Source of the DNA: Atriophallophorus winterbourni
Taxonomy: Eukaryota; Platyhelminthes; Trematoda; Plagiorchiida; Microphallidae
DNA length: 64,000 nt
Assembly: GCA_013407085.1 (NCBI GenBank)
Contig: JACCGJ010015001.1
Coordinates: 1-64,000, forward strand
Direction of reading: 5' to 3'
Numbering within the stretch: position 1 is the stretch's first letter; each line of letters starts with the position of its first letter. The position numbers and the translations under genes were made by a program. The notes beneath the pieces are model-generated. The model worked only from the letters and a program-made list of their open reading frames with translations. It was not told the origin of the DNA and made no database searches. Of the stretch, positions 3,401-64,000 are shown in pieces.

Positions 3401-3767
3401 TCCGGCCATCAACAATGGTTTTCAAGCAAAACTATTTTAACACTCTTCCAAGTTTCGTTGTTTTTAATTTTCACAATGACGCCGATAAACGGTCTGAAAC
3501 TTGCTGTGGATTAAGTGTGATGTGTGGATGTGGGCAACATTAGCATCACGTATCCCATATCTCACATACACATCACCATATCCCATTTGACCGTGGGTTT
3601 GCATCGAGTTTGCAGCCAAATTGGAATAATTTTGAATGTAAAAATTTCGAATTGTTCATGGACCATAAATATCATTGTGGTTTGTGTTGGATAGCACTGG
3701 TTGATACTCATATTTGCAAATGAACCAGAACGAGGCACATAGTTCTTTCATTAACTACTGCTTTTTC

Positions 3768-5039: not shown

Positions 5040-5292
5040 ATCTTGTCGTTTATTACATTAAAGCGTTTTGTGAAGAATAAGTTGTTTATGTTTGTGACTA
5101 CTCGTCCGTGTCAAGCCCAACGAAATATTCACATAGCTCATCACAACAGTCCATAATGGAAGCACTGGACTCGAGTTTCGCTTTCATTTGAACTCATCAG
5201 CAGTGCATATCCTCTAATTCGAATGGGATTCGAACACCCGACCAACACCAATGTAGCCCCACGCCTTACGAACTGGGCTACCGTCCACCGTT
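5040..5292 (-). mobile_element. tRNA-headed SINE with hammerhead core
   Basis: Read on the minus strand, the element starts with a tRNA-like head. An A-box-like TAGCCCAGTTCGTAAGG lies at 5262-5282 and a B-box-like TGTTCGAATCCC at 5225-5236, as expected for an internal RNA polymerase III promoter. A hammerhead core follows at 5162-5206, then a body without an ORF. A second body copy lies about 425 bp away at 5480-5640. This order is reminiscent of schistosome Sm-alpha repeats, in which a Pol III promoter precedes a hammerhead. Activity is inferred, and the 3' end is approximate. Confidence 0.7.
5162..5206 (-). ncRNA. Hammerhead ribozyme motif (SINE type)
   Basis: Minus strand: helix I 5' strand GCACTG (5201-5206), CTGATGA (5194-5200), helix II region (5180-5193), GAAA (5176-5179), then palindromic ACTCGAGT and C17, then helix I 3' strand CAGTGC (5162-5167). 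Helix I pairs over six bases. Predicted cleavage is after the GTC, between 5168 and 5167. Helix II pairs poorly here, while the sister copy at 5590-5631 shows GCTCA/TGAG(T). All core bases are present; self-cleavage is untested. Confidence 0.7.
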
Positions 5293-5479: not shown

Positions 5480-5640
5480 GTTGCTTAAACGTTTTGTGGA
5501 GAATATGTTGTTTATGTATGTGACTACTCATCCGTGCCAAGCCCATCGAACTATTCACAAAGTTGCTCACGACGGTCCGTAATGGAAGAACTAGACTCGA
5601 GTTTTACTCATGTTTGAGCTCATCAGCAGTGTTTTAAGCA
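5480..5640 (-). mobile_element. Second SINE body copy, degenerate hammerhead
   Basis: Repeats the body of the 5040-5292 SINE with a period of about 425 bp but lacks the tRNA-like head. The hammerhead region (5590-5631) keeps CTGATGA, a helix II arm GCTCA with partner TGAGT, and CTCGAGTC. GAAA has become AAAA (G12 lost) and helix I is mispaired, so it should be inactive. Confidence 0.6.
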
Positions 5641-7497: not shown

Positions 7498-7738
7498 CTC
7501 AAAATTGTCCTTCCATTTTTCGGCCATTCAGTAATTAAATCGTTGAGCGGACAATATGCTCTTTACGAGCTAATATCTACAGAAAGTATCAAATTACCGA
7601 ATCAGAGTTCAATCCAAACCGTCTTAATCTCGATCAACTGGATGCTCAAAGCACGTTTGAAAAGTTTAGCCACCAATTGAAAAGGAAGTACGACCTTTCC
7701 TTAGATCTACCTTTGCCAATGATACTGAAATTGCTGTG
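7498..7738 (+). CDS. Candidate exon with frame conflict, ending inside an R1 repeat
   Basis: The acceptor TTTCACAG precedes 7498. One frame reads protein-like from 7498 to about 7580 (LKIVLPFFGHSVIKSLSGQY) and then degrades. A second frame reads protein-like from 7583 to 7738 (KYQITESEFNPNRLNLDQLD, later LSLDLPLPMILK). A TATCTACAG acceptor at 7582, a tiny intron, or an indel could reconcile them; I cannot decide. The 3' end at 7738 (phase 2, donor GTGTGT) matches the acceptor phase of the 8078 exon. Bases 7731-7738 and that donor lie inside an R1 insertion. An in-phase alternative donor is at 7688 (AA|GTACGA). No family is recognised. Confidence 0.4.
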
Positions 7739-8014
7739 GTGTGTAACGGATGGGGATGTGAGCTCCACAAATATTGTTTTTTAGAAGCGCCTCGAACGCT
7801 TGGCCAGGAATCACTTTGTTGTTCTGTATTTAAACATCGCAGTTCATTGTAAAACCCTATACAACAGTGACATACACGTAAACCTTTGTTTACCACTTTA
7901 CCATTGTTTCACGGCTCACTGAACCTGATCCAACTGCCTTCATCTGACGACGACAAACAGCCAGAAACCGGTAGTGGTGTGTAAGGGATGGGGATGTGAG
8001 CACCGCAAATATTG
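7731..8014 (+). mobile_element. R1 hammerhead repeat with 7-bp target-site duplication
   Basis: ACTGAAA at 7724-7730 is repeated at 8015-8021, bounding a 284-bp insertion. Inside, sequence from 7736 (GTGGTGTGTAACGG) recurs at 7974 (GTGGTGTGTAAGGG), giving a 238-bp unit. Apart from about 5 extra bases, the homology starts exactly at the base after the predicted hammerhead cleavage site. There is no ORF, so this is a non-autonomous element. Confidence 0.75.
7940..7977 (+). ncRNA. Hammerhead ribozyme motif (R1)
   Basis: CTGACGA (7944-7950; N7 is free to vary), AAACA loop, GAAA (7964-7967), CCGG, T-A17, then GTGG (7974-7977). Helix II is weak here (CGAC/GCCA) and helix I (TCAT/GTGG) uses wobble pairs, so this copy is probably poor although the core is kept. 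Confidence 0.6.
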
Positions 8015-9371: not shown

Positions 9372-9873
9372 TAGTGGATAGTAGGACGTGATACAATATT
9401 GTTGTTGGCCTCCTTTGATCGATGTCGACCATGGATGGTTTGATGCTCAGCGGGATTTAAAATGACTAAACTTTCCGATTCGAGAGTGGTTATCTCTCCC
9501 ACTACGATCAAAACCATAAGCAGTACTCGGTCGATCGACGTCAGTTGTACGCGGGTGGCGTGATTTTCGTTCAGCAGCAAAGAGCTGTACCTGTTCCTCC
9601 CCAGCTTGCAGACGACGCTTTACACAATACCTGCAAAGTGTGTAGTCAAACGCAAGTTCTTCCTAACTTTTAGGGTCAATGCTGAGAGCATTCATAACAT
9701 TTTTGCACACGTCTTTGTACCGCAAGTGCGGTCTGCCTAAAGGTCAACTTCCTGATCTCAACTCACGATAGAGAATAGGAACATTTATTATTCTGTACGC
9801 ATGACCTTACTAGCGTGGGCGGCGCTGTCGTAGTAGAGTGAACACGCTCTTTAGACCGGCTTTAGAAAGCACT

Positions 9874-10151
9874 TGAACAGTTGGCATACAAGTATAACCT
9901 TGTTTACCTTCAATCCACTGTTTCAAGGCTCACCGAACCTGATCTTACTGTCTCCACCTGACGAAGGCAAACAGCCTGAAACCGGTAGTGGTGTGTAAGG
10001 GATGGGGATGTGAGCAACACATTACTTTGGTCATCCATAAGCGCCTCGAGTGCTTGACCAAGAATCACTTTGTGATTCCGTGTCTGAACATCGTGGTTCG
10101 TTGTACGAACCCTATATAACAGTTGGCATACAAGTATAACCTTGCTTACTT
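9874..10151 (+). mobile_element. R1 hammerhead repeat nested in RTE, 7-bp TSD
   Basis: AAGCACT at 9867-9873 and at 10152-10158 flanks the 278-bp insertion. The other RTE copies are continuous at this point. The insertion is longer than one unit: AGTTGGCATA at 9879 recurs at 10,121 (period 242 bp), so its ends are terminally redundant by about 35 bp. A complete hammerhead lies at 9954-9991. Confidence 0.8.
9954..9991 (+). ncRNA. Complete hammerhead ribozyme core (R1)
   Basis: Helix I CCAC (9954-9957) with GTGG (9988-9991); CTGACGA (9958-9964); helix II AGGC-AAACA-GCCT, four Watson-Crick pairs; GAAA (9978-9981); CCGG; T16.1 and A17 (9986-9987). Predicted cleavage is after 9987. ACCGGT makes a loop-less palindromic helix III, so folding probably needs two RNA copies. 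Best preserved copy in the window. Confidence 0.8.
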
Positions 10152-10984
10152 AAGCACTCGTTACCTTTTCCATCCAAGATATGTTAAAGATACGGCGGAT
10201 GCTTCGTAAATGGAAAGCATTCAGTTTCCATTCGTGTCTTGCGTGTTTCACGGAAGTAAGGTAATACATTTAGTACACATGCGCTGTATACCGTCATGTT
10301 TGTATTCATAGTCAACTTACGTTTGCCTAAGACACGAGAGTTTTAACAGGAAAAGATGGCAGCTGCTCTACCGATCCGGTTATCAATCTTTGTGTCTAGC
10401 GAAATGTTATCAGCAATGGTTCATCAAGATATGTGAAATTATGTACTGGTTCAAGCTGACTATTTACAAAAGTGATGATGAGAGGCGATACAATCCCTTG
10501 ACTAAGGAGGTTGGTCTTGCTCATGCTGATTGTTAGCCCAAAGTATTTGCATGCTGACGAAAAACAATCCATTAGCGACTGGAGGTTCTCTTGGGAGTGA
10601 GCAATAATGGCTGCACAGATTAGCACATTTCATGCCTTGCTTTGTGCTCTCAACCCGTTCAGGTTGAAAAACTTGTCATCACATCGCATGCGAAGTTGAA
10701 TACCTTCTGTTTCCGTCATAGAAGCGTATTTTAGAAGAAAGCAAAGAAAATACCGAACAGTGCGAGAGCTAGAACACCCCTTTGTTATACGTTTAGGCGA
10801 ATTTCAAAGGCTTCTAAACTGCAAACGTTAAAATAGACTGAGGCCTTCATGCCAGAGTGGAAAGAAAGAACGAGGTTGAACAGTCATTGAGGGCAATCTA
10901 CACAATCTCTCTCTCTCCCTCCTGCCACCACCGAAGAAGCGATTGATGAAGTATCGGTAGTAAAGCGATTTACAACAATCATAT

Positions 10985-15900: not shown

Positions 15901-16830
15901 TCAATAGACCGAAACGCAAGTGTCAGTGCTTTCGATTGAAGATTTCTTCAAAACCTTCGAAAACATGTTCATAATGGTCACGTGTAGTGGCTTTAATAAT
16001 GCTATGTACAACAAAGGTATCACACAACTGTTTACCGTGAGCAACGAGGCTGTGACAATTTGCGCCGGGCTGCCAGCAATGTATTCAATACTGGCTGTTC
16101 TACTGAGTAGAAAATAAATTCCATCCGGCGTGATGAGGGTGGTTGTAATGAGAATGTGACAAACAATGCTGAAGGTCAAACGTCGACCGACTTGCTTGCT
16201 TGTGGACGGATCGTTTCCTTGGCTTCGTCGTAAGTAGGTGAGTATTCTCCACGACATGAATATATTCATTACTGTTGGCAGCAGATAGGAGGAAAAAAAC
16301 CAAATGTATGAATCAATGACCACAATTAAAGATGGAGCAAATGTACATTTACTTTTCGGGCTGACGGATAAGTGGAACATGATTGGTAGACTGCAAGCAA
16401 ACGCCAGAGTGATCAGTAAAGTGTAGTATATGATCAACCTTCTGCGTTGGTGACTTTTGTAAAATACCGGCCATGTGACTGCTATAAATCGATCCACTGT
16501 AAGCGTGAAGGAGTTGTAAAGACTCAACGCGATGGCGTAAAAAAGCGGCCAGTTTGAAATCCAAAAGTGACATACAGCGACGTTGGTAACGGTTTCATTC
16601 AATGGTAACGTCCATTCTAGATAGATGTATAATGTGGTTATGATACAGACGAAAGTGTCGAACGTGGCTTGTGTTATCAAAAGTAATTTTGGAACAAAAC
16701 AAGAGAAAGTGGAAAAGTACAATATGACAATGAAGAACAGATTGACAATGATGCCAAAATTGAAGATGACCAAACGAAAAATGTTCACCAAATACTGCCA
16801 ACTGGTTGTGACTACGGTGTATAATACCAT
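15901..16830 (-). CDS. Class A (rhodopsin-like) G-protein-coupled receptor
   Basis: Intronless 309-residue ORF with seven hydrophobic segments at about residues 14-40, 46-72, 88-118, 130-154, 168-200, 217-242 and 255-280. Class A marks are G26-N30 in TM1, D58 in TM2, C87 and C162 placed for the TM3-ECL2 disulphide, and DRF (113-115, variant of DRY) after TM3. TM7 has NSCVIPLLY (267-275), so the NPxxY asparagine is replaced; TM6 lacks CWxP. N78ET could be glycosylated. The N-terminus is very short. It should sit in the plasma membrane and couple to G proteins; the ligand is unknown. The divergent motifs fit flatworm-specific orphan receptors (PROF-like), which is an inference. The ATG at 16,830 is the first in frame; an in-frame stop lies about 45 bp upstream. 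Confidence 0.9.
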   Translation of the reverse strand: MVLYTVVTTSWQYLVNIFRLVIFNFGIIVNLFFIVILYFSTFSCFVPKLLLITQATFDTFVCIITTLYIYLEWTLPLNETVTNVAVCHFWISNWPLFYAIALSLYNSFTLTVDRFIAVTWPVFYKSHQRRRLIIYYTLLITLAFACSLPIMFHLSVSPKSKCTFAPSLIVVIDSYIWFFSSYLLPTVMNIFMSWRILTYLRRSQGNDPSTSKQVGRRLTFSIVCHILITTTLITPDGIYFLLSRTASIEYIAGSPAQIVTASLLTVNSCVIPLLYIALLKPLHVTIMNMFSKVLKKSSIESTDTCVSVY

Positions 16831-16955
16831 TATGACAATGAGGGGCGAAAATTGACGAGTGTATATAAATTACAGGTCCACCAATCAGAAATGAAATAGG
16901 AAAATTCGATTGGGCGGGAATTCGTGTTTTGAGGGAAAACGAATAAATATATGTT

Positions 16956-21086: not shown

Positions 21087-21189
21087 CTAAGGCATTGTGG
21101 TGCTCACATCCCCATCCCTTACATACCACTACCGGTTTCTGGCTAATTTGCCGTCATCAGGTGGAGACAGTAAGATCAGGTTGAGTGAG
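21087..21189 (-). mobile_element. Short R1 insertion with hammerhead and 13-bp TSD
   Basis: CCTAATTATTACA at 21,074-21,086 recurs at 21,190-21,202, bounding about 103 bp. The insert contains the whole hammerhead plus about 45 nt of downstream R1 sequence. The last two bases of the repeat (CC) may belong to R1, so the duplication is at least 11 bp. Confidence 0.7.
21126..21164 (-). ncRNA. Hammerhead ribozyme motif (R1)
   Basis: Minus strand: CCAC, CTGATGA, CGGC-AAATTA-GCCA (three pairs, closing C/A mismatch), GAAA, CCGG, T-A17, GTGG. Core and helix I are intact; helix II is slightly weakened. Confidence 0.75.
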
Positions 21190-21965
21190 CCTAATTATTA
21201 CAATTTATCGGTTTTCGTCGCCCGACTTATTGGTGCTTCATATTCTTGTGTTGTGTCGGAGGGTGGTTTTCTGCATTTCGCCCGAAAGCTAGTGATCAGT
21301 ACTCATCGCTATTGCACTTCGCACTCTGATTAGACTAGCGAGAAAATATTTACTCAATCCAAATTCAATGGTTAGAAACGTGCAAACATTGAGTTGTCTT
21401 GGTTAATCGTGCATTGTCTTTCGCAATAATCCACACGATATGAAATTATGGTCGATTTGTATTGAACAGCGGTCAACAAACTTGGCACATACAAAACTAT
21501 TTAAAATTACGCAACGAAGCATTGTTTTTAACTGAGTCAGATCTCAATCGGAATAAACAAACGAATGGTGAAAGTCTAAAAATAAGATTCACTTTTCGTC
21601 TACGGTAAACACTATTTAAATCAGAATGTTAAAATGTTATAATTATTAATGAATCTCAATTCATGAATGATATCATATTCATAAATAAAGATCTGTTGAA
21701 CTACTTGAAATTTATAGTTATTCATAGAATATGTACATTGTATTTGAAACACTAAATTACTGTAAAGCTGCCTTTCGTCATACCCAAACTGTAAAATATC
21801 AAAAGACATTATTCTCCATGATTTGTTGTTGTTTCTGCTTGCCTGTTCATGTGAAGATTGCAAGATTAGGTTCAATAGCCAGAAACCGGCAACTTGTTCA
21901 CCATTCTCCCACAGGTTTAAGCGCATGCGGATCCTTATCGTACTGCCCTGTCTTTAATACTGTCC

Positions 21966-22003
21966 TTGCTTGATGAATTCAAACAGTACGAAACCGGTCT
22001 TGG
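21966..22003 (+). ncRNA. Degenerate hammerhead (R2)
   Basis: TTGATGA at 21,970 (C3 changed to T), ATTC-AAACA-GTAC helix II, GAAACCGGTC at 21,990-21,999, then TTGG. Loss of C3 should abolish activity. Confidence 0.55.
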
Positions 22004-22190
22004 GGTGTGTGGTAGAAATGTATGCAAATGAGCAATTTTATTCATAGTTATGATTATAACACCATTATACATGTGTTTGGTCACATGTGCTTAGACATGT
22101 ACCAGCGTAATCCAACAGTGGCTTACAAGCGCAATTTGTTTACCATTCTTCCACTGTTTCAAGCGCATGCGGATCCTAATCCTACTGTCC

Positions 22191-22228
22191 CTACCTGATG
22201 AATGCAAACAGAACGAAACCGATCTTGG
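22191..22228 (+). ncRNA. Hammerhead motif (R2), core kept, helices weak
   Basis: CTAC, CTGATGA (22,195-22,201), ATGC-AAACA-GAAC, GAAA, CCGATC, TTGG. Core bases survive, but helix II, helix III (CCGA) and helix I carry mismatches. Confidence 0.6.
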
Positions 22229-22265
22229 AGGTGTTGTGGAAATGCACGCAAATGAGTATTTAAGT

Positions 22266-23095
22266 TATATATTATAACAAAGAATGAAAAATACCATATA
22301 TTCTTATGTGTTTAATGGCTTCATCTGGAGGCAATGTGTGATTAGTTACATTCAATTTTGTTCGGCAATTAATTTTTTGTTAATGCGGCTTTACACATAA
22401 GTTTACTATAGTTAAAGGAGTAAAATTTCACTAGTCAGATGTTGTGCAGTCAAACTAATAGATGAAACGGAGCACGGTTTTTTATGTTGTATGTATGCAG
22501 GCCTGTGATTGTGTCTGTGTATATTGAGTTCGAAGACGGTACGATTGATCCGAGTTGTGTATTCGACTTGCATTCCAGCTGTTCGAATTTGGCCCCTCAC
22601 AGAGGGAAATGTTAAGTCTGAAAAATATCACTCTTGTTTCTATAGCACGCCAGACTTTTATCTTAGAAGATCGACATCTAAGGTTTGTATGAAAAATGTA
22701 GTTAGACAAATCAGATGATTTAGCATCGGACACAGCTGAGGTAAACAAAAAAGAAACGGACACATTCACGAAGAGAATCATTTAAATAAGATTCTGTAAT
22801 AAATTCAATGGCTCCAAACAGTTGGCCATGTCAAACTAACCTAACAACTGGTTCACTTCAACATTCACACGTCAAATTTCAATAAGGATCTGGAATATAA
22901 AATGTACTATAAAACTTCATCAAGAAAAGTCCAGAGAAACGCACAAGTTAGCGAAATATTTCCGGAAGAATATGTTATATGCAAAACGGCAAAAGCATAT
23001 GTAACATGAAAAATCTCGAAAGCGATTCATCTATTTAAACATTCTTCCATCCACCTATCTATATATCACTAATCCAATAAACGTTCATCTACTAA
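22266..23095. other. No gene recognised
   Basis: AT-rich non-coding sequence. Overlapping ORFs at 22,412-22,781 have no family signature. Confidence 0.35.
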
Positions 23096-25103: not shown

Positions 25104-25964
25104 ATTCACATGCATTTCCATACCACGTATGTACCACACTGAAGACCATCTTACTGGTCCTCTCTTTTGATTTCTCGGTCTTGCTCAAATAGAGTTGAAA
25201 CTCAAATCAATATACGAAAAGCTGAATTGGTTCTTCTGGTGCCTAACCCTTGATTACAAAAGAGAAACAAAAATTGAACTGAGAATATCCGATGCTGAAA
25301 AGGACACGAAAAACTATTTCACCTTATGTGTGTAACAGAGCACTCTAAGTTAGGACGGTGCATGCACACACACACACACACTCAATCACACAATCGGACT
25401 TCACTCTAACAAAACCACAGAACCGCATGCCTTTAGGTGTCACGCTTGAGTTAATTATGCAGAAACATCAGGTTGCTCAGCCAAAACAAGCGTGGTTGTT
25501 TTTGTGAACTTCATTTGGTGGTGCTATGCACTTAATTTTTTACACATCATTGGAGATAGGTTAAGAACACTTTTACAAATTAGTTATCAGTTCATCAACA
25601 AGTACTGTAATGATCACGTAAGGTGCAAAAACTTAGTGAATAGCTAGTTTTTTTGATGCTCACATTCCCCTCACGTAAAGAAAATATTTTTGTATTTTAA
25701 AATTTGAGTGCAACATTGGTCTCAGTTTGCATTGCACAATCTTGTGAGGAAAGAAGGAACTTTTATGTTCGCAACTGCAGAGTAATAAATCGGTTTATCG
25801 TATGTTTTAGTTGATAATGAAAAAGTGATGGTATATTAAAGATATATTTCTTGTTCCGCTGTTGGATACGTTTGGTACGACCAACCTGTTCAATAACATA
25901 AGCCCACACTCGTGTAGATAGGGTTTAAACACATGATCCTGAATACAAATGATTATTTCCATTC
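25104..25964. other. No gene recognised; short CA run
   Basis: Non-coding. A CA dinucleotide run lies near 25,365-25,381. Nothing else is recognised. Confidence 0.35.
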
Positions 25965-26285
25965 ATTCCCATCACACACATACCCCACGACCCCTGTTTG
26001 CACTGTCCTTACCTGATGAGTGCAAACAGCACGAAACCGGTCGTGGAGTGTGTGATGGAAGTGCATGCAAATGGGTATTTTTGTTCATGATCATGGGTTT
26101 AAACCCTCTCTACATGTGTTTGGACGCATGTTATTGAACAAGTTAGTCGTACCAACCTTAGCCAACAGCGGCATACACGCGCAACTTGTTTTCCATTATT
26201 ACAAAGTTTCAAGCGCATGCGGATCCTGATCCTACGTTCCGTTCCTAATAGTGCAAACAACATAAAACCGGTCGTGGTTTCCAAG
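25965..26285 (+). repeat. R2 repeat with hammerhead and flanking inverted arm
   Basis: Contains a well-preserved hammerhead at 26,009-26,046. The left part (25,969-25,992) is the reverse complement of the post-cleavage part (26,039-26,058). A second, partial R2 unit (GCGCATGCGGATCCTGATCC, AAACCGGTCGTGG) follows at 26,210-26,280. Confidence 0.75.
26009..26046 (+). ncRNA. Hammerhead ribozyme core (R2)
   Basis: TTAC, CTGATGA (26,013-26,019), helix II GTGC-AAACA-GCAC with four perfect pairs, GAAA (26,033-26,036), CCGG, T-C17, then GTGG. Predicted cleavage is after 26,042. Helix I (TTAC/GTGG) uses two wobble pairs. Helix III is palindromic ACCGGT, as in R1. Confidence 0.75.
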
Positions 26286-33689: not shown

Positions 33690-33975
33690 TGTTATCATCA
33701 TGGTGATGTATTGCTCACCCCCCCCCCCCGAAATCACACTCCACTGTTTGCCGTCATCAGGTGGAGACAGTAAGAATAGGTTCAGTGAGCCTTGAAACAG
33801 TGGATAAATGGTCAACAATTGTATACTTGAATGCCACTGTTGCATAGGGTTCGTACAACGAACCACCATGTTCAAACACAGAATTACATAGTGATTCGTG
33901 GTCAAGCACTCAAGGCGCTTATAAATGACCAACGTGATGTGTTGCTCACATCCCCCGAAATTACACTCCTCATCA
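33690..33975 (-). repeat. R1 repeat, more than one unit, hammerhead deleted
   Basis: GTGATGTATTGCTCAC at 33,703 recurs as GTGATGTGTTGCTCAC at 33,934 (period 231 bp). On the minus strand CTGATGA (33,754-33,760) and half of helix II remain, but the stretch holding GAAACCGGTA is deleted. A run of about ten C lies at 33,719-33,729. Confidence 0.65.
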
Positions 33976-36128: not shown

Positions 36129-36474
36129 TCTTACCAGGTATTTTTGAAAGCCAGCGTAGTTCAAGATACTGAAGAAAGGGATGCCAGATTTTTACTCAAA
36201 CAAATCGACGAAATAATTAACGATTCAGATTACGTAAATGTCTAGCATTCATATATAATCTTCTTATTGGTAATAAATGATAATCGCACTCGCAAAAATT
36301 CGTGTTCAGAAGGATCCACTCGAGGATTTTTCGAAAGACAGTGTTCGACAAAAACGAGTGAAGAAACTTAGCATCTATTTAACTGCATGCAATTCGTCAA
36401 GGTCAGACAAAACAAGCTCAACGTGGTGACCATAAATTCCTGAATCTTGAATGGTGTGGACTTGGTATATTTTG

Positions 36475-36575
36475 GTGCTCGCATCCCAATCCATTACACA
36501 CCACTACCGGCTTATGGCCGTTTGCCGTCATCAGGTGGAAACAGTTAGATCAAGTTCAGTGAGCCTTCAATTTAA
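36475..36575 (-). repeat. R1 fragment with degenerate hammerhead
   Basis: Minus strand at 36,501-36,538: CCAC, CTGATGA, CGGC-AAAC-GGCC, then TAAGCCGGTA in place of GAAACCGGTA, then GTGG. G12 and one A are lost, so no activity is expected. Confidence 0.65.
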
Positions 36576-40150: not shown

Positions 40151-41129
40151 ATTTATTGAATTGAAGTTATCCCCAAAATCACTCAGGCCATGACAAACTT
40201 GGAACCTTCTTGGCAATAGTTCGACCTAATCCACGGGCATTGAGCACACGAATACAATTAATTATAATACCAATGACACTTAGGCGAAAAATATTTCGAA
40301 ACAAATATGATGTTATCTTCATGTTTAAAGTCTTTGGAATCAAATGGTTGCGACTACATCGGGGAACTTTGTGTTTCAGACACAAAAGCTTTATCGAAGC
40401 AAGGCTGGTATCCAGAACGAAAAATCTACTGAGAATCAATACATTACACAATGATTAGACCAGAATGTGAAATCTTGATCAAGTTGAACACGCAAGCCTT
40501 AAGAGAATGTGCTATCTGCCATCGAGATGAGTCCACCGATACGCAGTCGGTCATAAGTCGTTGCGCACGAGTGAGGAAGTCAGTCTTTATTAACACAATT
40601 AAAGTACGACTTTGTTGAGATATTTCATGGAAGAGTTCATCTGAAGCATTCACACACGTTCTAAAGTTCCACGGTTTACTGACCATAGAAAGTACTTGGA
40701 ATAATGTTAAATCATGATTCAAAGACTGAATTGTTCTAACATTAATCGATTTTATGCTAAAATTGACTAGGATTGTGTGTTTGTAGCTTGTGTTGAAAAG
40801 ACAGTCGACAACCAAAACACGTAGGACGATAGGGTCGCATTGGTAGTCGGCGTAAATCAGTGGCACCTGATTATTTATCAGCTGACATGGCATGTGTGAA
40901 ATATCCGAAACGGGGTGATCGAACCAAGCGCGATTTTCGATTTTATGTCGCGCAGTGTGCTGGCGAGGTTGACAAATTGAAAATCGACTGTATCAACAGC
41001 CGAAAGGAAACTTTTGTATGTGGAAATGTCAAACTTAGCTCATTAATCGTTTTACGTTCATGGCTTTGTTAAATACGGTTCTTACAAACCAGGATGTTCA
41101 AATACACATTCAAAGAGTGATCAGCAATA
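40151..41129. other. Unassigned; 149-codon minus ORF
   Basis: A minus-strand ORF at 40,444-40,893 of 149 codons is the longest unexplained frame in the window (PWNFRTCVNASDELFHEISQ). It has no recognised motif and no clear splice sites. It may be a decayed retroelement segment. Confidence 0.3.
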
Positions 41130-41640
41130 ATGTGATACTCGCCCCATGCACTCACTCATCAACACAGTCAGTTTCTGATTGGTTGCCATCATCAGACGGA
41201 GAAAATAAAATTAGGTTCAGTAGGGCTTGTAGATTTAGAAAAGTGGTAAGCAAAGTTACACTTTGAACCCACTGTTTAATAGTGTTTGTACATCGAAGCA
41301 CGATGTTCAAAACACAGAATCACATGGTGGTACCAGATCAAGGATACCTGAACCAAATCTTTACTTTCTCCACTTGATGACGGCAAATAGCTAGAAACCG
41401 GTTATGATGCTGGGGATGCTAACAATACTACTTTACTCGTCTACGAGCACTTGACGAGGAATCTCTCTGTGAAGGTGCATTTTAATATTGTGTACGAACC
41501 CCATTCAACAGCGGCTTTCAAGTATAACATCAAGGCTCACTGAACCTAATCTTTACTGTGCTCACCTGATGACAGCAAACACGCATAAACCGGCTGCGGT
41601 GTGCAAGTGATAGTTCACGAGCACAACAGTATATTGACTA
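41130..41640. repeat. Cluster of degenerate R1 units in both orientations
   Basis: Minus orientation: CTGATGA at 41,189-41,195 with GAAAC downstream (about 41,173-41,178). Plus orientation: 41,370-41,407 (TTGATGA, GAAACCGGTT) and 41,562-41,600 (CTGATGA, TAAACCGGCT). All have core changes. This is a nest of old copies. Confidence 0.6.
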
Positions 41641-43664: not shown

Positions 43665-43930
43665 TAAACATGCTCACTTGTATGCATTTCCATTACACAC
43701 CCCACGACAGCGCATGTGGTTCCTGATCTTATTGTCCCTACTTGATGAGTGTAAACAGCACGAAACCGGTCCTAAGGTATGATGAAAATGCATGTAAATG
43801 AGCATTTTCGTTCATGATCATGTGTTTAAACCCAATCTGCGTGTTTGGGCACATGATTGAACAGGTTGCACGTACCAAACTTATCCAATAGTAGCATACA
43901 AGCGCAACTTGTTTGCGATGAGATTATCCT
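43665..43930 (+). repeat. R2 repeat with degenerate hammerhead
   Basis: Hammerhead region 43,738-43,775: TTGATGA (C3 to T), helix II GTGT-AAACA-GCAC (four pairs with a wobble), GAAACCGGTC. As at 25,969, the left flank (43,685-43,708) is the inverted form of the R2 post-cleavage sequence. Confidence 0.65.
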
Positions 43931-59700: not shown

Positions 59701-62700
59701 TGAAAAGTCGCCACCATGACCAATTTCGTAGTTTCAAGTAAGCCACACAATTACGTTGAATAAGAGTGACGGCTTGAAGATCTCGTTTCCGCATTTCTTG
59801 AGCACTACATTGAGCGAAAAAGGACGAGTTATTCATCGTAAAATTGTTTCGCGAGAAAATGTGTGGATAGAATCACGAATCTGAAGACGTATACATAACG
59901 CAATGTAGCTTATACGTAGAGACACCGTTAAAATAACCAGGCGCTGATAGATACAAGAGAAAGGTAACAGCGACAGTTATAATGCAGTGTTATCGCACAT
60001 AGCTTGGCGACATTGAAAATAAATTTTCTGTGATACTGCTTGTTGAAATTGACTGAACATTGCCGCAAAAATTAAGCGAGATGAAAGAATATCGCCGAGC
60101 AAAAGGCAAATGAAACATTTGAGACTTAAAAGCAGTCTAGGGCTCGTCAACCTGACAGTATCTCAGCTCACGTACAATCTATGACTGTGCGAAGCTTTGC
60201 CTGATTTTAGTGTTGTGATTTTATACCGAAACACTGTAAAGCATAACCTACAAGTTGGGGAAGACTAGATACTACTCACGACTGCTGATCATAGATCATG
60301 ATGCAGTCAGCGCGCAACGGGCACCTGCTGTCCGACGACTGCTTATCACTGTGAGCGCAGCGAATCTGACTGTTTAGTCATTCAAAAAGCTGTGTGAAAC
60401 ATGAAATCATCATGCACATGTGATGTACGTCCATGATCGACTTCGACTGAAGAAGGCCAACAACAACTCAATGATAATGACTAAAAACTCTTACTACCCT
60501 CCCAAACGTACCGTTTCGCTAGATAGCCCCGAGCACGAGCTTGGAAGCGGATAATGATGTCATTCAAACGGGTATCCCGGTTTTCTTCTAGCTGCGCTAA
60601 AACACCAGCCTTGAAAAATATCTTGCTGTGACCAAGCCGATAGAGAGACGGTTCAATATCCAGAAACTGCAACATTTTCATCGCCGCCTCTCGGCCATCC
60701 ATAAAGCCCTGAAAACAGAGCGCACGAGAAAGGTGAAATCAGATAAGAATAGCTTTTACGGTATAACGAGTTTCCAATGCATTATGACTGTATTGCAGTA
60801 AGCGACGAGAATTCGACAGAGTTCACCGGTGTTATGGTAAACAGCTGTGCAGCCATTGAGGTGATGTCTTGACAGGCGAGTCTTGAACTTGGCTAATCCA
60901 CATTATTTGAGGTTAATCACTATCGTTTCGAACGAGTTTTCACACACATGGTGACAGTGCAGCAAAATAGGATACAGGAATATAGGATCGTCCATGTTGT
61001 GGGTTGTATAGCAGTGGAACACCGGTATGCATGACCGATAAAAACCCCTCTTGAGGTGAAGCTTATGACATGTTGTTTACTGCGCTATTTCGTGTGATTG
61101 TCCTTAACGTAATTCGTACCACGTAGCTGGGTGGGTTGCTTATAGCATGCAGAGGGCACGCTGTAACAACTACTATCACTGGTAAGCAGTTTTAACTCAG
61201 AAAACCCCCAAACCATATGATTGCTGCTAACTCTTACTCGAGTTTTTGAATATTCTCGGGCAACCCAATGGTGCCTTGAGCCAAGCAGTTTTTATTCACC
61301 TCATGGGCGATCTTTTAAGCCCCAACCATGCAAACAAATAATCCCGAATGAGCTCAACTTTATCTGTGTGAGTCACATCAGTCGAAAAAATGCGGTATGG
61401 TAAGTGATGACGTACTCATTAAAATGTCCGCGGCATCGCAAATGAGCACTAGTATTATTACAATCTGTCAGTGCTTTATACAACGACGGACAACTAAGGT
61501 AGTTAAAGAATGCCGACCTCGATTGCGAACAATCTTTTGCCGACAACTGGTGGCCATCTTCACTCAAGATCGGTAAGATTTTGCAACTAGATAACAAGAT
61601 GGAACAATTGCGTCGTACATTCTACTTTTAACACATAGGGAAACACCTCAACCTCGCTATGAATGACCGGTGTTGGCCTGAATGCTGCACACGGTTTGAA
61701 TTTAGGTTTTACAAATCCACATATACCTGCACAGTAAAATCATGTGAGCCATTGAGCAGTCGAAATCACTATTAGGCACAGAATGCACAGCACAACGCAG
61801 CTTGGTTTTGCTTGCACGAGCCAAAACACAGTATAACTGAACATACATGTGACGCTATGCTATGCATGAAATCACAAACCTGATCCAGGCAAAGTGCCGC
61901 ACAGTCATAGACTGCACTTGGACTAAGATACTGTCAAGTTAGGCCTGGGCAACCTGACAGTATCTTAGCCCACGTGCAGTCTTCGACTGTGCGGCACTTT
62001 GCCTGGATCATGCTTGTGCTTTCATACATCATACATACATACATACATCTCTGCTGGATATCCGACCAGATCTAATGCTACGAAGCGCAACATTCTAGTT
62101 TGTCGACTAATCGCATAACCCCTCGATTTTTTTTCTCCGAATATAACCGGTTCACTTTTGTGACCTGTGAGACAACAATCTTTCTATCACGTTTATTCTT
62201 GCTTCTTTCGTTCAAACGGTGACCTTGGTTGCCGAAACATGAAGCTATTTTCCTTTCGTCATTTTAATTTACTTGCACCTTTATGGCTTGTGATATGATC
62301 CCGTTAAACATGTCTACACAGATATGAGAAAGGAAAATAGCAATGGCAGTGAGACTCCATCGTGTTTTCGCATGCAGCTCACTATCGGTGGCAAACTAAC
62401 TGAGTACGGAGTTGGCTTCACAGCACAGAAGTGATGCACGATTGCACATCCGTGGCGCTATGGTACGGTATATTGACCATAGGTATAGCCAAAGAGGAAG
62501 CCGAAATGTTGTGAATCAAAGTTTGATAAAACAATAATCGAACGAGGCATCCAATCCGGCAAATGTCATTTCAAATATACAACAGGTGCTACTGAAAAAG
62601 AACATCAGAATAACTGACCTTTGCGACTACGTTTGGCGTGATTATCTCATATCGTTGTCGGAACTCTTGGAACAACACACGAGACGGAAAACCTTGGCGA

Positions 62701-64000
62701 CAAATACGTATACCTTCTAAGACACCGTTGCATTTGAGCTGGTCTAAAACCAAATTCGATTCAATATATCCGGCACGTTTCTTATGATTCGGGATGATAC
62801 AACGCACGAAACTTGGGAACGTGTTTTTCAACACAGCCATCAAACGGACCAAGGATTCTTTGTACAACTGACTGACGGTGCGGAACATGCCTTTTCTAAT
62901 ACCGCGAGCACCGAACGCCGATTCGCCTGCTGTGGTAGCCGACATGCCCACTATTTCCGCATCTTGATAAATGGCCTGTAGTAAAGCATGCATCAAATGA
63001 AAATGAGCCATTGTCAACAACCAAGTAGACGTGAATGTGAGTTGAAAACCAACCTGCACCAATGGATCGGTAGATGAAAGCAGTAAAGTCACAACGTTAT
63101 CGTTCAGTGGATCCATGTTTTTCATTAGCCATTGATTGGAGATATAATCCACTCGCCCCGCATAGTGAACAACCCCGAAATCAATGGAAGAACGGAAATC
63201 AGGTTTGAAAATTTTCGGATGAGATTCTTGGTTTTTGAGCAGTTTTTCGACAAAAGACTTGTCTGTGGCTTTAGGGAAGAAGCACTCGTCATCCAAAAGA
63301 GCAAGAATGCCCATTGGCTGAGAAGAGAGCATAGGAATCGAGTAATTTGGTTGAACATATAGGGAAAGAAACCACTTTTACACAGCATCAATCAGCAGTA
63401 AATAGACGTGTGAGCAGTGAAAAAAGAAGAACAAGTCGTGAATCCGATAAAATCCAAACTGATAAGCAAAACCGTTGATTTTTCAAACTACGTACATGTT
63501 ACTTGGCGCAAACTATTCATCGGATTGCATAACGCCGTAATCGTATTTGACAAAATAACGAAAAACAACCTATTAATTGTTAGTCAGCCAACGAATACAG
63601 ATGTGGCGCACCAAAGTTTGCTCAGGCAGCTTAACAGTCGAAAAACCAAAAGTAACCAGGCACACAATTTGTGGTAACGCAGTGGAAGTGTGCACAAAGT
63701 GCACTGAATATTGACAAGCGTGTCTAATGTATGGTCGCTTGGTGGGAACAAACAAATGTCCACGGTGATCAGAAACCACGTTGAGACAAATTATATATAC
63801 GTAGGAAAGCACAAACCGGATTCAGGCAAAGTGCCGCACAGTCAGAGACTGCACGTGGGCTAAGATACTGTCAGGTTGCCCAGGCCTAGACAGATACGAG
63901 AAAGGAAACAGAGAATAGAAATGGTAGTGAGACTCCAGCGTGTTTCAGCATACAGCTCACTACCGGTGGACAATCAATTTAACATGGCGTTAGCCGCAAA
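47654..64000 (-). CDS. Non-muscle/smooth-muscle-type myosin II heavy chain, 5' end outside window
   Basis: Seventeen exons, listed singly below, join in phase to about 1,431 residues. This matches the C-terminal part of a myosin II heavy chain (about 1,960 residues) from the motor domain onward. Visible are [14 protein letters not shown], loop 2, [12 protein letters not shown], the reactive-thiol helix ([15 protein letters not shown]), converter ([13 protein letters not shown]), two IQ segments, [12 protein letters not shown], a full heptad-repeat rod and a 33-residue tail. The joined rod aligns without gaps to human non-muscle myosin as I recall it, for instance 88 residues between the RQEE and ADLTDQL regions. 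It would form dimers and filaments that pull on actin, with light chains bound at the IQ motifs. The roughly 520 N-terminal residues lie right of the window. Sixteen introns: five are 76-86 bp; two have GC donors. Confidence 0.93.
48225..48590 (+). repeat. Left arm of a long inverted repeat (partner 61,936-62,290)
   Basis: The segment with TGACGAAAGGAAAATAGC, TAGTCGACAAACAAGAATG and GGTCGGATATCCAGCAGAG, plus the first part of an R3 element (from 48,497), recurs almost base for base in reverse complement at 61,936-62,290. Confidence 0.85.
48497..48600 (+). mobile_element. R3 repeat, 5' part only
   Basis: Begins after a TATG/GATG run with AAAGCACAAGCCTGATCCAG and stops after CAGATATGACAAAA. 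Lies in the last myosin intron. Confidence 0.75.
48932..49146 (-). CDS. Myosin exon: C-terminal rod
   Basis: Starts [13 protein letters not shown] after an ACCTAG acceptor and ends at CTACG|GTAAGT in phase 2. Contains [15 protein letters not shown], the conserved end of the myosin rod. Confidence 0.93.
49224..49415 (-). CDS. Myosin exon: rod
   Basis: 64 codons, [15 protein letters not shown] to RVKELTMQ, phase 0 at both ends; followed by a 77-bp intron. Confidence 0.93.
49590..49700 (+). mobile_element. Degenerate R3 fragment
   Basis: AAGTGCCGCACATTCTGAG, GGGCTAAGACA and CCTTGACAGATAT in the R3 order; in a 724-bp myosin intron. Confidence 0.5.
50140..50347 (-). CDS. Myosin exon: rod
   Basis: First base A completes AA|A (Lys), then [14 protein letters not shown] to ASLEKQ, ending at CAG|GTTAGT. 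Corresponds to the region with the conserved EKRRLEARI in vertebrate proteins. Confidence 0.93.
50645..50865 (-). mobile_element. R3 repeat copy
   Basis: Nearly full R3 in minus orientation within the 1,271-bp intron (GCTAACACTGTGCTA, GGAGTCTCATTATCATTT, CTTTGCCTGGATCAGGC). Confidence 0.7.
51619..52091 (-). CDS. Myosin exon: rod
   Basis: 157 codons, [14 protein letters not shown] to ELQAANTG plus two bases (AA|GTACGT). Contains [15 protein letters not shown], a conserved rod signature. Confidence 0.95.
52168..52581 (-). CDS. Myosin exon: rod
   Basis: 138 codons, [11 protein letters not shown] to MERQRVE, phase 0 at both ends, donor GTACGT. Contains [20 protein letters not shown] and VEELEDEV. 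A 76-bp intron separates it from the next exon. Confidence 0.95.
52779..52946 (-). CDS. Myosin exon: rod
   Basis: 56 codons, [17 protein letters not shown] to RKKLQSE, phase 0, donor GTAAGA. Corresponds to the KKKVDDD region of vertebrate myosin rods. Confidence 0.93.
53300..53560 (+). mobile_element. R3 repeat copy
   Basis: Nearly full R3 in plus orientation in the 714-bp intron (AAGCCTGATCCAGGGAAAGT, AGGTTGCCCAGGCCTAGACA, TTAGCACGGTGTTAGCCGCA). Confidence 0.8.
53661..54036 (-). CDS. Myosin exon: rod
   Basis: First base A completes AA|A (Lys) left by the exon ending at 55,281 with a GC donor, then [14 protein letters not shown] to HVQTLNMQ, ending CAA|GTATGT. Confidence 0.93.
54430..54970 (-). 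mobile_element. GC-rich RTE-leader-like insertion
   Basis: Shares with 39,840-40,150 the blocks GGAGGTTTAAAATCAGGGTT-like, GTTTTCCTTCCCTTAG-like and GTTCCGCCGGG. In the RTE copy this is the 5' leader. It has no intact ORF and is inserted in the 1,244-bp myosin intron. Confidence 0.6.
54990..55110 (-). mobile_element. R3 fragment
   Basis: TATCTGTCTAAACTTG, GACAGTATCCCAACCCAC and CATGCTTGTGCTTTCATA in R3 minus order. Its 5' part seems cut by, or adjacent to, the 54,430-54,970 insertion. Confidence 0.6.
55281..55457 (-). CDS. Myosin exon: rod, GC donor
   Basis: First base A completes GT|A (Val), then [19 protein letters not shown] to LQSLQAA plus AA. The only donor that keeps phase and length is GCAAGT at 55,280-55,275. 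The alternative GTTATT breaks phase with the next acceptor. Confidence 0.88.
55537..55763 (-). CDS. Myosin exon: rod
   Basis: 75 codons and two bases, [20 protein letters not shown] to RRQTEAMT plus GT, donor GTATGA. The 79-bp intron is in phase 2. An earlier-looking GTGTAT donor would break phase. Confidence 0.92.
56145..56345 (-). mobile_element. R3 repeat copy
   Basis: Minus-orientation R3 in the 1,657-bp intron, head-to-head with the next copy across a TGTATG-rich spacer. Confidence 0.7.
56385..56630 (+). mobile_element. R3 repeat copy
   Basis: Plus-orientation R3 (AAAGCACAAGCCTGATCCAG through GCACAATTGCACCTCCGTG). With the preceding copy it makes a divergent inverted pair about 40 bp apart. 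Confidence 0.75.
57177..57303. repeat. (TATG)n microsatellite in myosin intron
   Basis: Imperfect TATG array with TTTG, TACG and TAGC interruptions, about 120 bp from the 57,421 exon edge. Confidence 0.95.
57421..57903 (-). CDS. Myosin exon: rod, longest exon
   Basis: 161 codons, [14 protein letters not shown] to FARAEAAKK, phase 0, donor GTGAGT. Contains [20 protein letters not shown], a strong non-muscle/smooth-type rod signature. Confidence 0.96.
57990..58118 (-). CDS. Myosin exon: rod, GC donor
   Basis: 43 codons, [18 protein letters not shown] to QKRLKQQ, ending CAG|GCAAGT, the standard GC-AG donor context. The intron is 86 bp. Confidence 0.92.
58708..58842 (-). CDS. Myosin exon: start of rod
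   Basis: 45 codons, [18 protein letters not shown] to SNMNLQA, phase 0, acceptor TTTTTAG, donor GTACGC. Confidence 0.92.
59627..59804 (-). CDS. Myosin exon: second IQ region and rod start
   Basis: First base T completes CG|T (Arg), then [38 protein letters not shown] and VTRQEE, to DELRK, donor GTATGT. The IQ-like segment binds a light chain by homology. The invariant Pro region marks the lever-rod junction. Confidence 0.95.
60135..60230 (-). mobile_element. R3 fragment
   Basis: GCTCGTCAACCTGACAGTAT, then GACTGTGCGAAGCTTTGCC, in R3 minus order; in the 707-bp intron. Smaller R3 scraps also occur at 58,590-58,640 (+), 59,150-59,225 (-) and 59,405-59,490 (+). Confidence 0.6.
60290..60470 (+). 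mobile_element. RTE 3' end fragment
   Basis: CGAATCTGACTGTTTAGTCA, then ATGATCGACTTCGACTG and GGCCAACAACAAC, matching the 3' end at 34,800-34,925; in the 707-bp intron. Confidence 0.7.
60512..60708 (-). CDS. Myosin exon: converter and first IQ
   Basis: [40 protein letters not shown], then [16 protein letters not shown]; ends at CG|GTACGT in phase 2. Includes the converter and first light-chain-binding helix. Confidence 0.95.
61862..62460 (+). mobile_element. R3 copy split by an inverted insertion
   Basis: The 5' half of a plus R3 (61,862-61,935, to CTGTCAAGTT) resumes at about 62,318 (CACAGATATGAGAAAGG) and ends at 62,460. The roughly 380 bp between is a reverse-complement copy of 48,225-48,590. 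Confidence 0.75.
62619..62975 (-). CDS. Myosin exon: loop 2, actin interface, SH1 helix
   Basis: 119 codons, [17 protein letters not shown] to ITPNVVAK, phase 0. Has [31 protein letters not shown] and [18 protein letters not shown]. Loop 2 is about two residues shorter than in human non-muscle myosin IIA and has few lysines. Confidence 0.96.
63054..63317 (-). CDS. Myosin exon: motor domain, first exon in window
   Basis: 88 codons, [20 protein letters not shown] to [11 protein letters not shown], phase 0 at both ends, acceptor TTCTCAG. About residue 525 onward in a typical myosin II. The preceding exon is beyond 64,000. Confidence 0.95.
63800..64000 (+). mobile_element. R3 copy running off the window
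   Basis: Well-preserved R3 (AAAGTGCCGCACAGTCAGAG, GGTTGCCCAGGCCTAGACAG, GGCGTTAGCCGCA) in the intron 5' of the first visible myosin exon. Confidence 0.8.

Follow-up and report, generated by a model that had tools for sequence, protein, structure and literature searches.

A 242-bp retrozyme-like repeat family with a predicted dimer-type hammerhead in the trematode Atriophallophorus winterbourni

The window, the whole stretch of 64,000 nucleotides of contig JACCGJ010015001.1 that was analysed, carries on its minus strand, from ~47 kb to 63.4 kb, the exons of a class II myosin heavy chain with motor and tail domains (Pfam), whose nearest solved relatives are non-muscle and smooth-muscle myosins and whose exon at 62592-63377 (minus) has its best protein match, 67% identical, in Echinostoma caproni. 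A long open frame at 15904-16869 (minus) encodes a rhodopsin-family seven-transmembrane domain (Pfam 7tm_1), and ARAGORN found no tRNA. The analysis centres on a short insert with a hammerhead motif, laid out as follows (unit position 1 is the first base after the predicted cut; all features on the plus strand):

9876-10151: insert of one 242-bp unit with ~34 bp repeated (from unit 131 across the motif to ~162-164)
9867-9875: left flank AAGCACTTG, possible target duplication (shared 7-mer AAGCACT, p 0.03 to 0.06 depending on flank length)
10152-10160: right flank AAGCACTCG, agreeing with the left flank in 8 of 9 letters and so a possible target duplication
9944-9999: extended motif with outer helix Ib and internal loop
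9944-9948 and 9995-9999: outer helix Ib, CTTAC and GTAAG, beyond the internal loop
9954-9991: hammerhead motif (helix I, core, helix II, palindromic helix III)
9954-9957 and 9988-9991: helix I, CCAC and GTGG
9958-9964: core CTGACGA
9965-9968 and 9974-9977: helix II, AGGC and GCCT
9969-9973: helix II loop AAACA
9978-9980: GAA
9981-9986: helix III palindrome ACCGGT, without a loop
9987: position 17, an A; predicted cut between 9987 and 9988

The motif at 9954-9991 had been singled out in a first-pass annotation of this DNA, and on re-reading the sequence we found its letters and coordinates to be correct; the outer helix Ib with its internal loop, absent from that annotation, can be read in the letters and is present in the single-strand fold. 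The motif has the CUGANGA and GAAA core, a position 17 that is not G, an open-ended helix I and the three helices of a type I hammerhead, the third of which exists only between two copies in the two-strand fold. A strict scan of the window returned three hammerhead motifs (9954-9991, 26009-26046 and, on the minus strand, 5162-5206), compared with a mean of 0.006 per shuffled window (500 dinucleotide shuffles, at least one motif in 3 of them), which rules out a chance motif at 9954-9991 and argues that it is genuine. The motif had also been assigned to a 242-bp repeat devoid of ORFs, and both points hold: a direct repeat of 31 bp begins at 9877 and again, 242 bp on, at 10119, arrays with a spacing of ~242 bp occur elsewhere in the genome, and the longest ATG frame of the window copy has 42 codons, on the minus strand. 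Further copies and relatives of the unit are found in the window:

7736-8013, plus: older copy (B), starting at unit 1, the predicted cut; ACTGAAA flanks, p 0.055
21087-21192, minus: older 5'-truncated copy (D) with an 11-bp target duplication, TGTAATAATTA
33744-33955, minus: older copy (C), hammerhead partly deleted; ATGATGAT flanks, p 0.01, ends refined by eye
36473-36570, minus: older 5'-truncated copy (E), no target duplication found
41067-41611, no single strand: older decayed copies (G), partly head-to-head
21889-22279, plus: related subfamily with C at position 17 (C17), two motifs ~226 bp apart
25856-26277: related C17 subfamily, inverted piece 25856-25979 (minus) and main piece 26006-26277 (plus) with the motif 26009-26046
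43666-43914: related C17 subfamily, inverted piece 43666-43708 (minus) and main piece 43709-43914 (plus)

Both inverted pieces of the C17 subfamily (25856-25979 and 43666-43708, minus) start three bases ahead of the predicted cut, at GTC/GTGG with the stroke marking the cut. Exact-pattern scans of collections of viral contigs and genome contigs returned no match. In the 537-Mb genome from which the window comes (15840 contigs), a DNA search returned at least 130 matches to the 242-bp unit (best 40 of 1979 first-look candidates scored), many of them 97-99% identical to the window copy. The near-identical units occur both as dispersed copies and as long head-to-tail arrays in which hammerheads follow each other at ~242 bp.

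Folding of the motif depends on whether one or two strands are considered. The single-strand minimum free energy (MFE) structure of the 61-nt motif is not unusually stable (z -0.76) and pairs 3 of the 10 core positions, and a plain monomeric hammerhead was rejected on this ground. With two strands of the window copy the MFE structure is a double hammerhead with six helix III pairs, and the two commonest family types likewise fold into a double hammerhead with all 10 core positions free. Double hammerheads with free cores are predicted for three of the ten window copies (A, D and I), the other seven folding otherwise, and helix III is, as in dimer-type minimal hammerheads, too short alone and self-complementary. 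Two-strand folding thus backs, as a prediction, the earlier proposal that ACCGGT pairs only between two copies. When the 13 base pairs of helices I, Ib and II are scored over the ten window copies, 74.6% of cells are paired, a value reached by 2 of 500 shuffles (mean 68.1). Changes on both sides of a pair are not exceptional in number (79 of 500 shuffles), and in seven copies the first helix II pair is non-standard. R1, a model built from these ten copies, gave 12 matches with E below 1e-6 in the window, ten of them to its own members. The covariance-model check proposed with the first-pass annotation went against it, as the motif at 9954-9991 scores 11.8 bits with the Rfam model RF00163 (Hammerhead_1, cut-off 34 bits) and no Rfam match reaches its curated threshold anywhere in the window; below it, 5162-5206 scores 33.8 bits and 26007-26048 scores 31.2 bits.

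To describe variation in the family we used 174 other units from 31 loci, all matches of at least 90% identity, with known overlaps removed. The base pair at the foot of helix II is U.U in 90 of these units, C.A in 72, A-U in 3 and something else in 9; since 162 of the 174 have U.U or C.A at this place, the perfect helix II of the window copy is a rare variant, and its description as near-ideal fits this complete copy but not the family. Divergence over the 24 positions of core, palindrome, position 17 and helix I is 1.46%, compared with 3.30% over all 242. Of random position sets, 0.1% gave a value as low, as did 2 of the 242 circular shifts (true position included); these controls only partly remove the common history of units in one array. 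The two-type site in helix II keeps a plain 30-nt window across the whole motif from being low in variability (rank 211 of 242). Two-strand folding, the reduced divergence of core, helix I and palindrome, and published dimer-type hammerheads together support a hammerhead whose helix III would form only between two copies. At unit position 217 (window 9962), 172 of the 174 young units have a C, giving CTGACGA, and older copies read CTGATGA; the latter sequence places an ATG where a Penelope-like frame would start.

The ends of the inserts are not spread evenly along the unit. Ten of the 42 3' ends contained in the stretches examined lie in unit 36-50 (2.6 expected) and 15 in unit 150-165 (2.8 expected), so that 25 fall into two zones, ~42 and ~157 nt beyond the site of the predicted cut, and the sequences ahead of the two zones, ATTACTTTG and ATAACCTTG, are alike. 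The other 17 lie elsewhere, several of them in decayed copies where the alignment may end too soon, and at the 3' end at unit 101 in locus L015 the copy is interrupted by another sequence of ~147 bp. At the 5' side, 4 of 39 ends lie near the cut (-2 to +3; 0.8 expected) and 9 of 39 in unit 105-132, at a hairpin (4.5 expected), both of which are weak fits. Among all 29 inserts with both ends in view, ten have shared flanks at p<=0.05 (six at p<=0.001), though the letters shared at one of the ten, 33744-33955, are the element's own at the ends used; 12 chosen inserts tested before the full set had given 8 of 12 at p<=0.05. Target duplications longer than 4 bp are therefore seen at part of the inserts, and shared flanks at p 0.05 are absent from the remaining 19 of 29, including the young L010, L014 and L027.

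In all four young head-to-head inverted inserts (L006, L011, L015 and L018, with pieces more than 90% identical to the window copy; L016, which has the arrangement of L015 on another contig, was excluded from the count) the two outer ends differ, one lying near 42 and the other near 157. Each of the four also has shared flanks whose length none of 2000 shuffles reached. Older head-to-head inserts are mixed, with two of six at best fitting this rule: 43666-43914 (outer ends 40 and 149 of another subfamily's unit) and L049 6584-6755 (~32 and 151) come near it, 25856-26277 (129 and 4), 41171-41611 (237 and 16) and L052 5135-5309 (32 and 110) are off, and an insert of L048 near 3540-3679 is readable at one end only. 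The family thus has inverted head-to-head copies, recurring 3' ends and short target duplications, all of them features of Penelope-like elements, and the paired ends and short duplications of the young inverted inserts resemble Penelope-like insertion.

Penelope-like elements are present in the same genome. A GIY-YIG profile gave 17 matches above the cut-off, and a Penelope-like reverse transcriptase (RT) fragment of L049 gave at least 150 (best 150 of 2413 candidates scored), some of them in tandem ~2525 bp apart with frames of up to ~850 codons. Contig C10209, which includes L070, has four such head-to-tail matches at this spacing, with frames open over 686 to 851 codons. A piece of frame at L070:1-1239 stays below the cut-offs for RVT_1 (29.4 bits, cut-off 29.6) and GIY-YIG (19.7 bits, cut-off 22.6), L071:3-1166 matches RVT_1 at 27.6 bits (cut-off 29.6) and no other domain, and L070:1212-2651 has no domain match. 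By eye, a hammerhead-like motif can be read at the start of the next Penelope-like frame: CTGACGA, then a hairpin, then GAAACGTC, the palindrome ACGT standing where helix III would be. This or a similar motif recurs in five of six loci inspected. Rfam detected no hammerhead in L070 and L071 and, up to E 0.5, nothing in seven Penelope-like loci, though R1 detects members of the 242-bp family in two of these; run unfiltered on L070 and L071, R1 gave weak matches only (E 2.9 to 4.6). No sequence homology was found between the 242-bp unit and the Penelope-like units of L070 and L071. L049 has one head-to-head inverted copy of a Penelope-like element.

The 242-bp unit itself holds no RT and GIY-YIG frame and none is joined to it at the loci inspected; a direct link between unit and Penelope-like frame in L048 and L049 was rejected, as the unit pieces there seem to have been inserted separately, one of them flanked by a 14-bp repeat. 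At L051, L053, L054 and L055, GIY-YIG frames lie beside retrotransposon-like frames and recur on both strands, in an arrangement like that of large palindromes, the neighbouring domains having been named by eye.

The reading that we consider probable is that the 242-bp repeat is a non-autonomous, non-coding retrozyme-like retroelement, in which a dimer of the hammerhead would cut after A17 and reverse transcription would start at ~42 and ~157, probably by a Penelope-like enzyme. Tandem units would be transcribed by read-through, and two hammerheads, within one RNA or between two, could pair via ACCGGU and share a helix III of six base pairs; from fold and variation, we infer that this double hammerhead, including that of 9954-9991, would cut after A17; a linear or circular RNA would serve as intermediate. 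The clustered ends suggest that an RT copies this RNA at a nick in the target, starting internally ~42 or 157 nt past the cut, and the four young inverted inserts suggest that starts from both target strands lead to head-to-head inserts with short target duplications. Likeness to the elements described in the accessible parts of PMC3846280 and PMC11167929 points to a Penelope-like element as the probable supplier of the enzyme, which the 242-bp family would then share, and cleavage may serve to yield unit-length or circular RNA, as it does for retrozymes in the accessible part of PMC7229834. An essential role of cleavage in insertion is weakened by the Penelope-like element of Anolis, since its hammerhead mutants still insert in vitro and its RNA-seq data have no ends at the cut, as far as the accessible part of PMC11167929 tells. 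According to the same source, the Anolis element has two internal RT start sites that match genomic insert ends, both target strands are extended and the hammerhead lies beside the start. The 242-bp family is alike in its two recurring end sites, in its hammerhead and, by inference, in the use of both target strands, yet the two sites are 30-40 nt apart in the coding Anolis element and ~115 nt apart in the non-coding unit.

A narrower proposal is tentative: the dimer-hammerhead retrozyme could be a substrate of the Penelope-like machinery with two fixed ATWACYTTG starts, 42 and 157 nt past the cut, one used per target strand, which would leave a head-to-head insert with one end of each kind. 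If true, this would tell which enzyme moves animal retrozymes, a question left open in the accessible parts of PMC7229834 and PMC7761336, in which Penelope-like elements figure as strong or likely candidates. Paired fixed ends of this sort were not found described in the accessible parts of the literature searched, and the question of the retrozyme enzyme becomes testable in a young family in which ends recur, targets are duplicated and inverted inserts are paired.

On a different account, which we regard as unlikely, a Penelope-like element has lost its coding part and left the unit as a solo or tandem terminal repeat (pLTR), and the hammerhead is the ribozyme of that element's start region and does not define an independent retrozyme family. 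The accessible part of PMC3846280 describes pLTRs of 193-218 bp, an optional 31-bp tail, inverted and solo pLTRs and duplications of 8-10 bp, which would suit the unit. The ATG in the CTGATGA core of older copies also falls where the Anolis frame starts, but it is ACG in nearly all young units, the Penelope-like junctions examined carry a different motif, and no coding frame adjoins the unit, even at L048 and L049 with their apparently separate inserts. That another RT, such as that of a LINE, makes the inserts, with the inverted ones arising by twin priming, seems improbable to us. LINE twin priming likewise yields inverted inserts with target duplications, and by eye the window is rich in LINE-like fragments; its second start is usually variable, however, whereas the outer ends of the four young inverted inserts lie in fixed zones inside the unit, and no poly-A or simple tail is seen at the 3' ends inspected. 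Equally improbable to us is an old satellite spread by recombination, with the hammerhead a relic without function: the long head-to-tail arrays, the mismatched helix II base of most units and the unconserved 30-nt window (itself due to the two-type site) would agree with it, but the dispersed inserts with target duplications and the reduced variation of core, helix I and palindrome would not.

Dimer-type minimal hammerheads of Penelope-like elements, reportedly the work of Cervera and de la Pena in 2014 and of Lunse, Weinberg and Breaker in 2017, and tandem retrozymes of animals, including platyhelminths, are already known, and the retrozyme-like 242-bp family adds to these kinds of element, with the closest dimer-type hammerheads compared by description only. 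The minimal hammerheads, as described in the accessible part of PMC7761336, are of type I, lie in tandem without a real helix III and are reported to cleave as dimers, which agrees with the earlier remark that very short helices III are known from Penelope-like elements; the 242-bp unit has the same type I motif without a real helix III, also in tandem, but lacks an RT frame and has the outer helix Ib and internal loop. Metazoan non-LTR retrozymes, in the accessible part of PMC7229834 (Cervera and de la Pena 2020), are non-coding tandem repeats of 170-400 bp with low GC (under 50%), type I hammerheads, some of which need dimers, and target duplications longer than 4 bp, and they co-exist with Penelope-like elements in hosts that include platyhelminths. 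The 242-bp family is alike in these traits, the need for dimers being predicted from folding, and its non-coding tandem unit has a GC content of 46%. It differs in the loop-less palindromic helix III, and that part of the source describes for metazoan retrozymes neither internal 3' ends that recur nor inverted inserts with paired ends. One axolotl retrozyme hammerhead has U.U at the base of helix II and is more active as a dimer (PMC7229834, accessible part), a mismatch also present in 90 of the 174 units of the 242-bp family; the family offers a natural series of dimer-type hammerheads with helix II paired or mismatched.

Apart from the 242-bp family, the window contains a second hammerhead family with a normal helix III, on the minus strand at 5162-5206 (the Rfam score of 33.8 bits, cut-off 34) and 5590-5630 (a weak HH9 match). 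A copy of ~148 bp is repeated, the family looks like the SINE-like elements of Schistosoma, and a stretch upstream of the 5162-5206 motif bears a resemblance to a tRNA-type B box. The Schistosoma Sm-alpha and W elements are trematode repeats with type I hammerheads, three candidates of which were shown to cleave (PMC8490949, accessible part). They and the 242-bp family are both trematode repeats with a type I hammerhead, but the Sm-alpha and W motifs have three stems in this source, and, compared by description, the family of 5162-5206 (minus) looks closer to them than the 242-bp family does.
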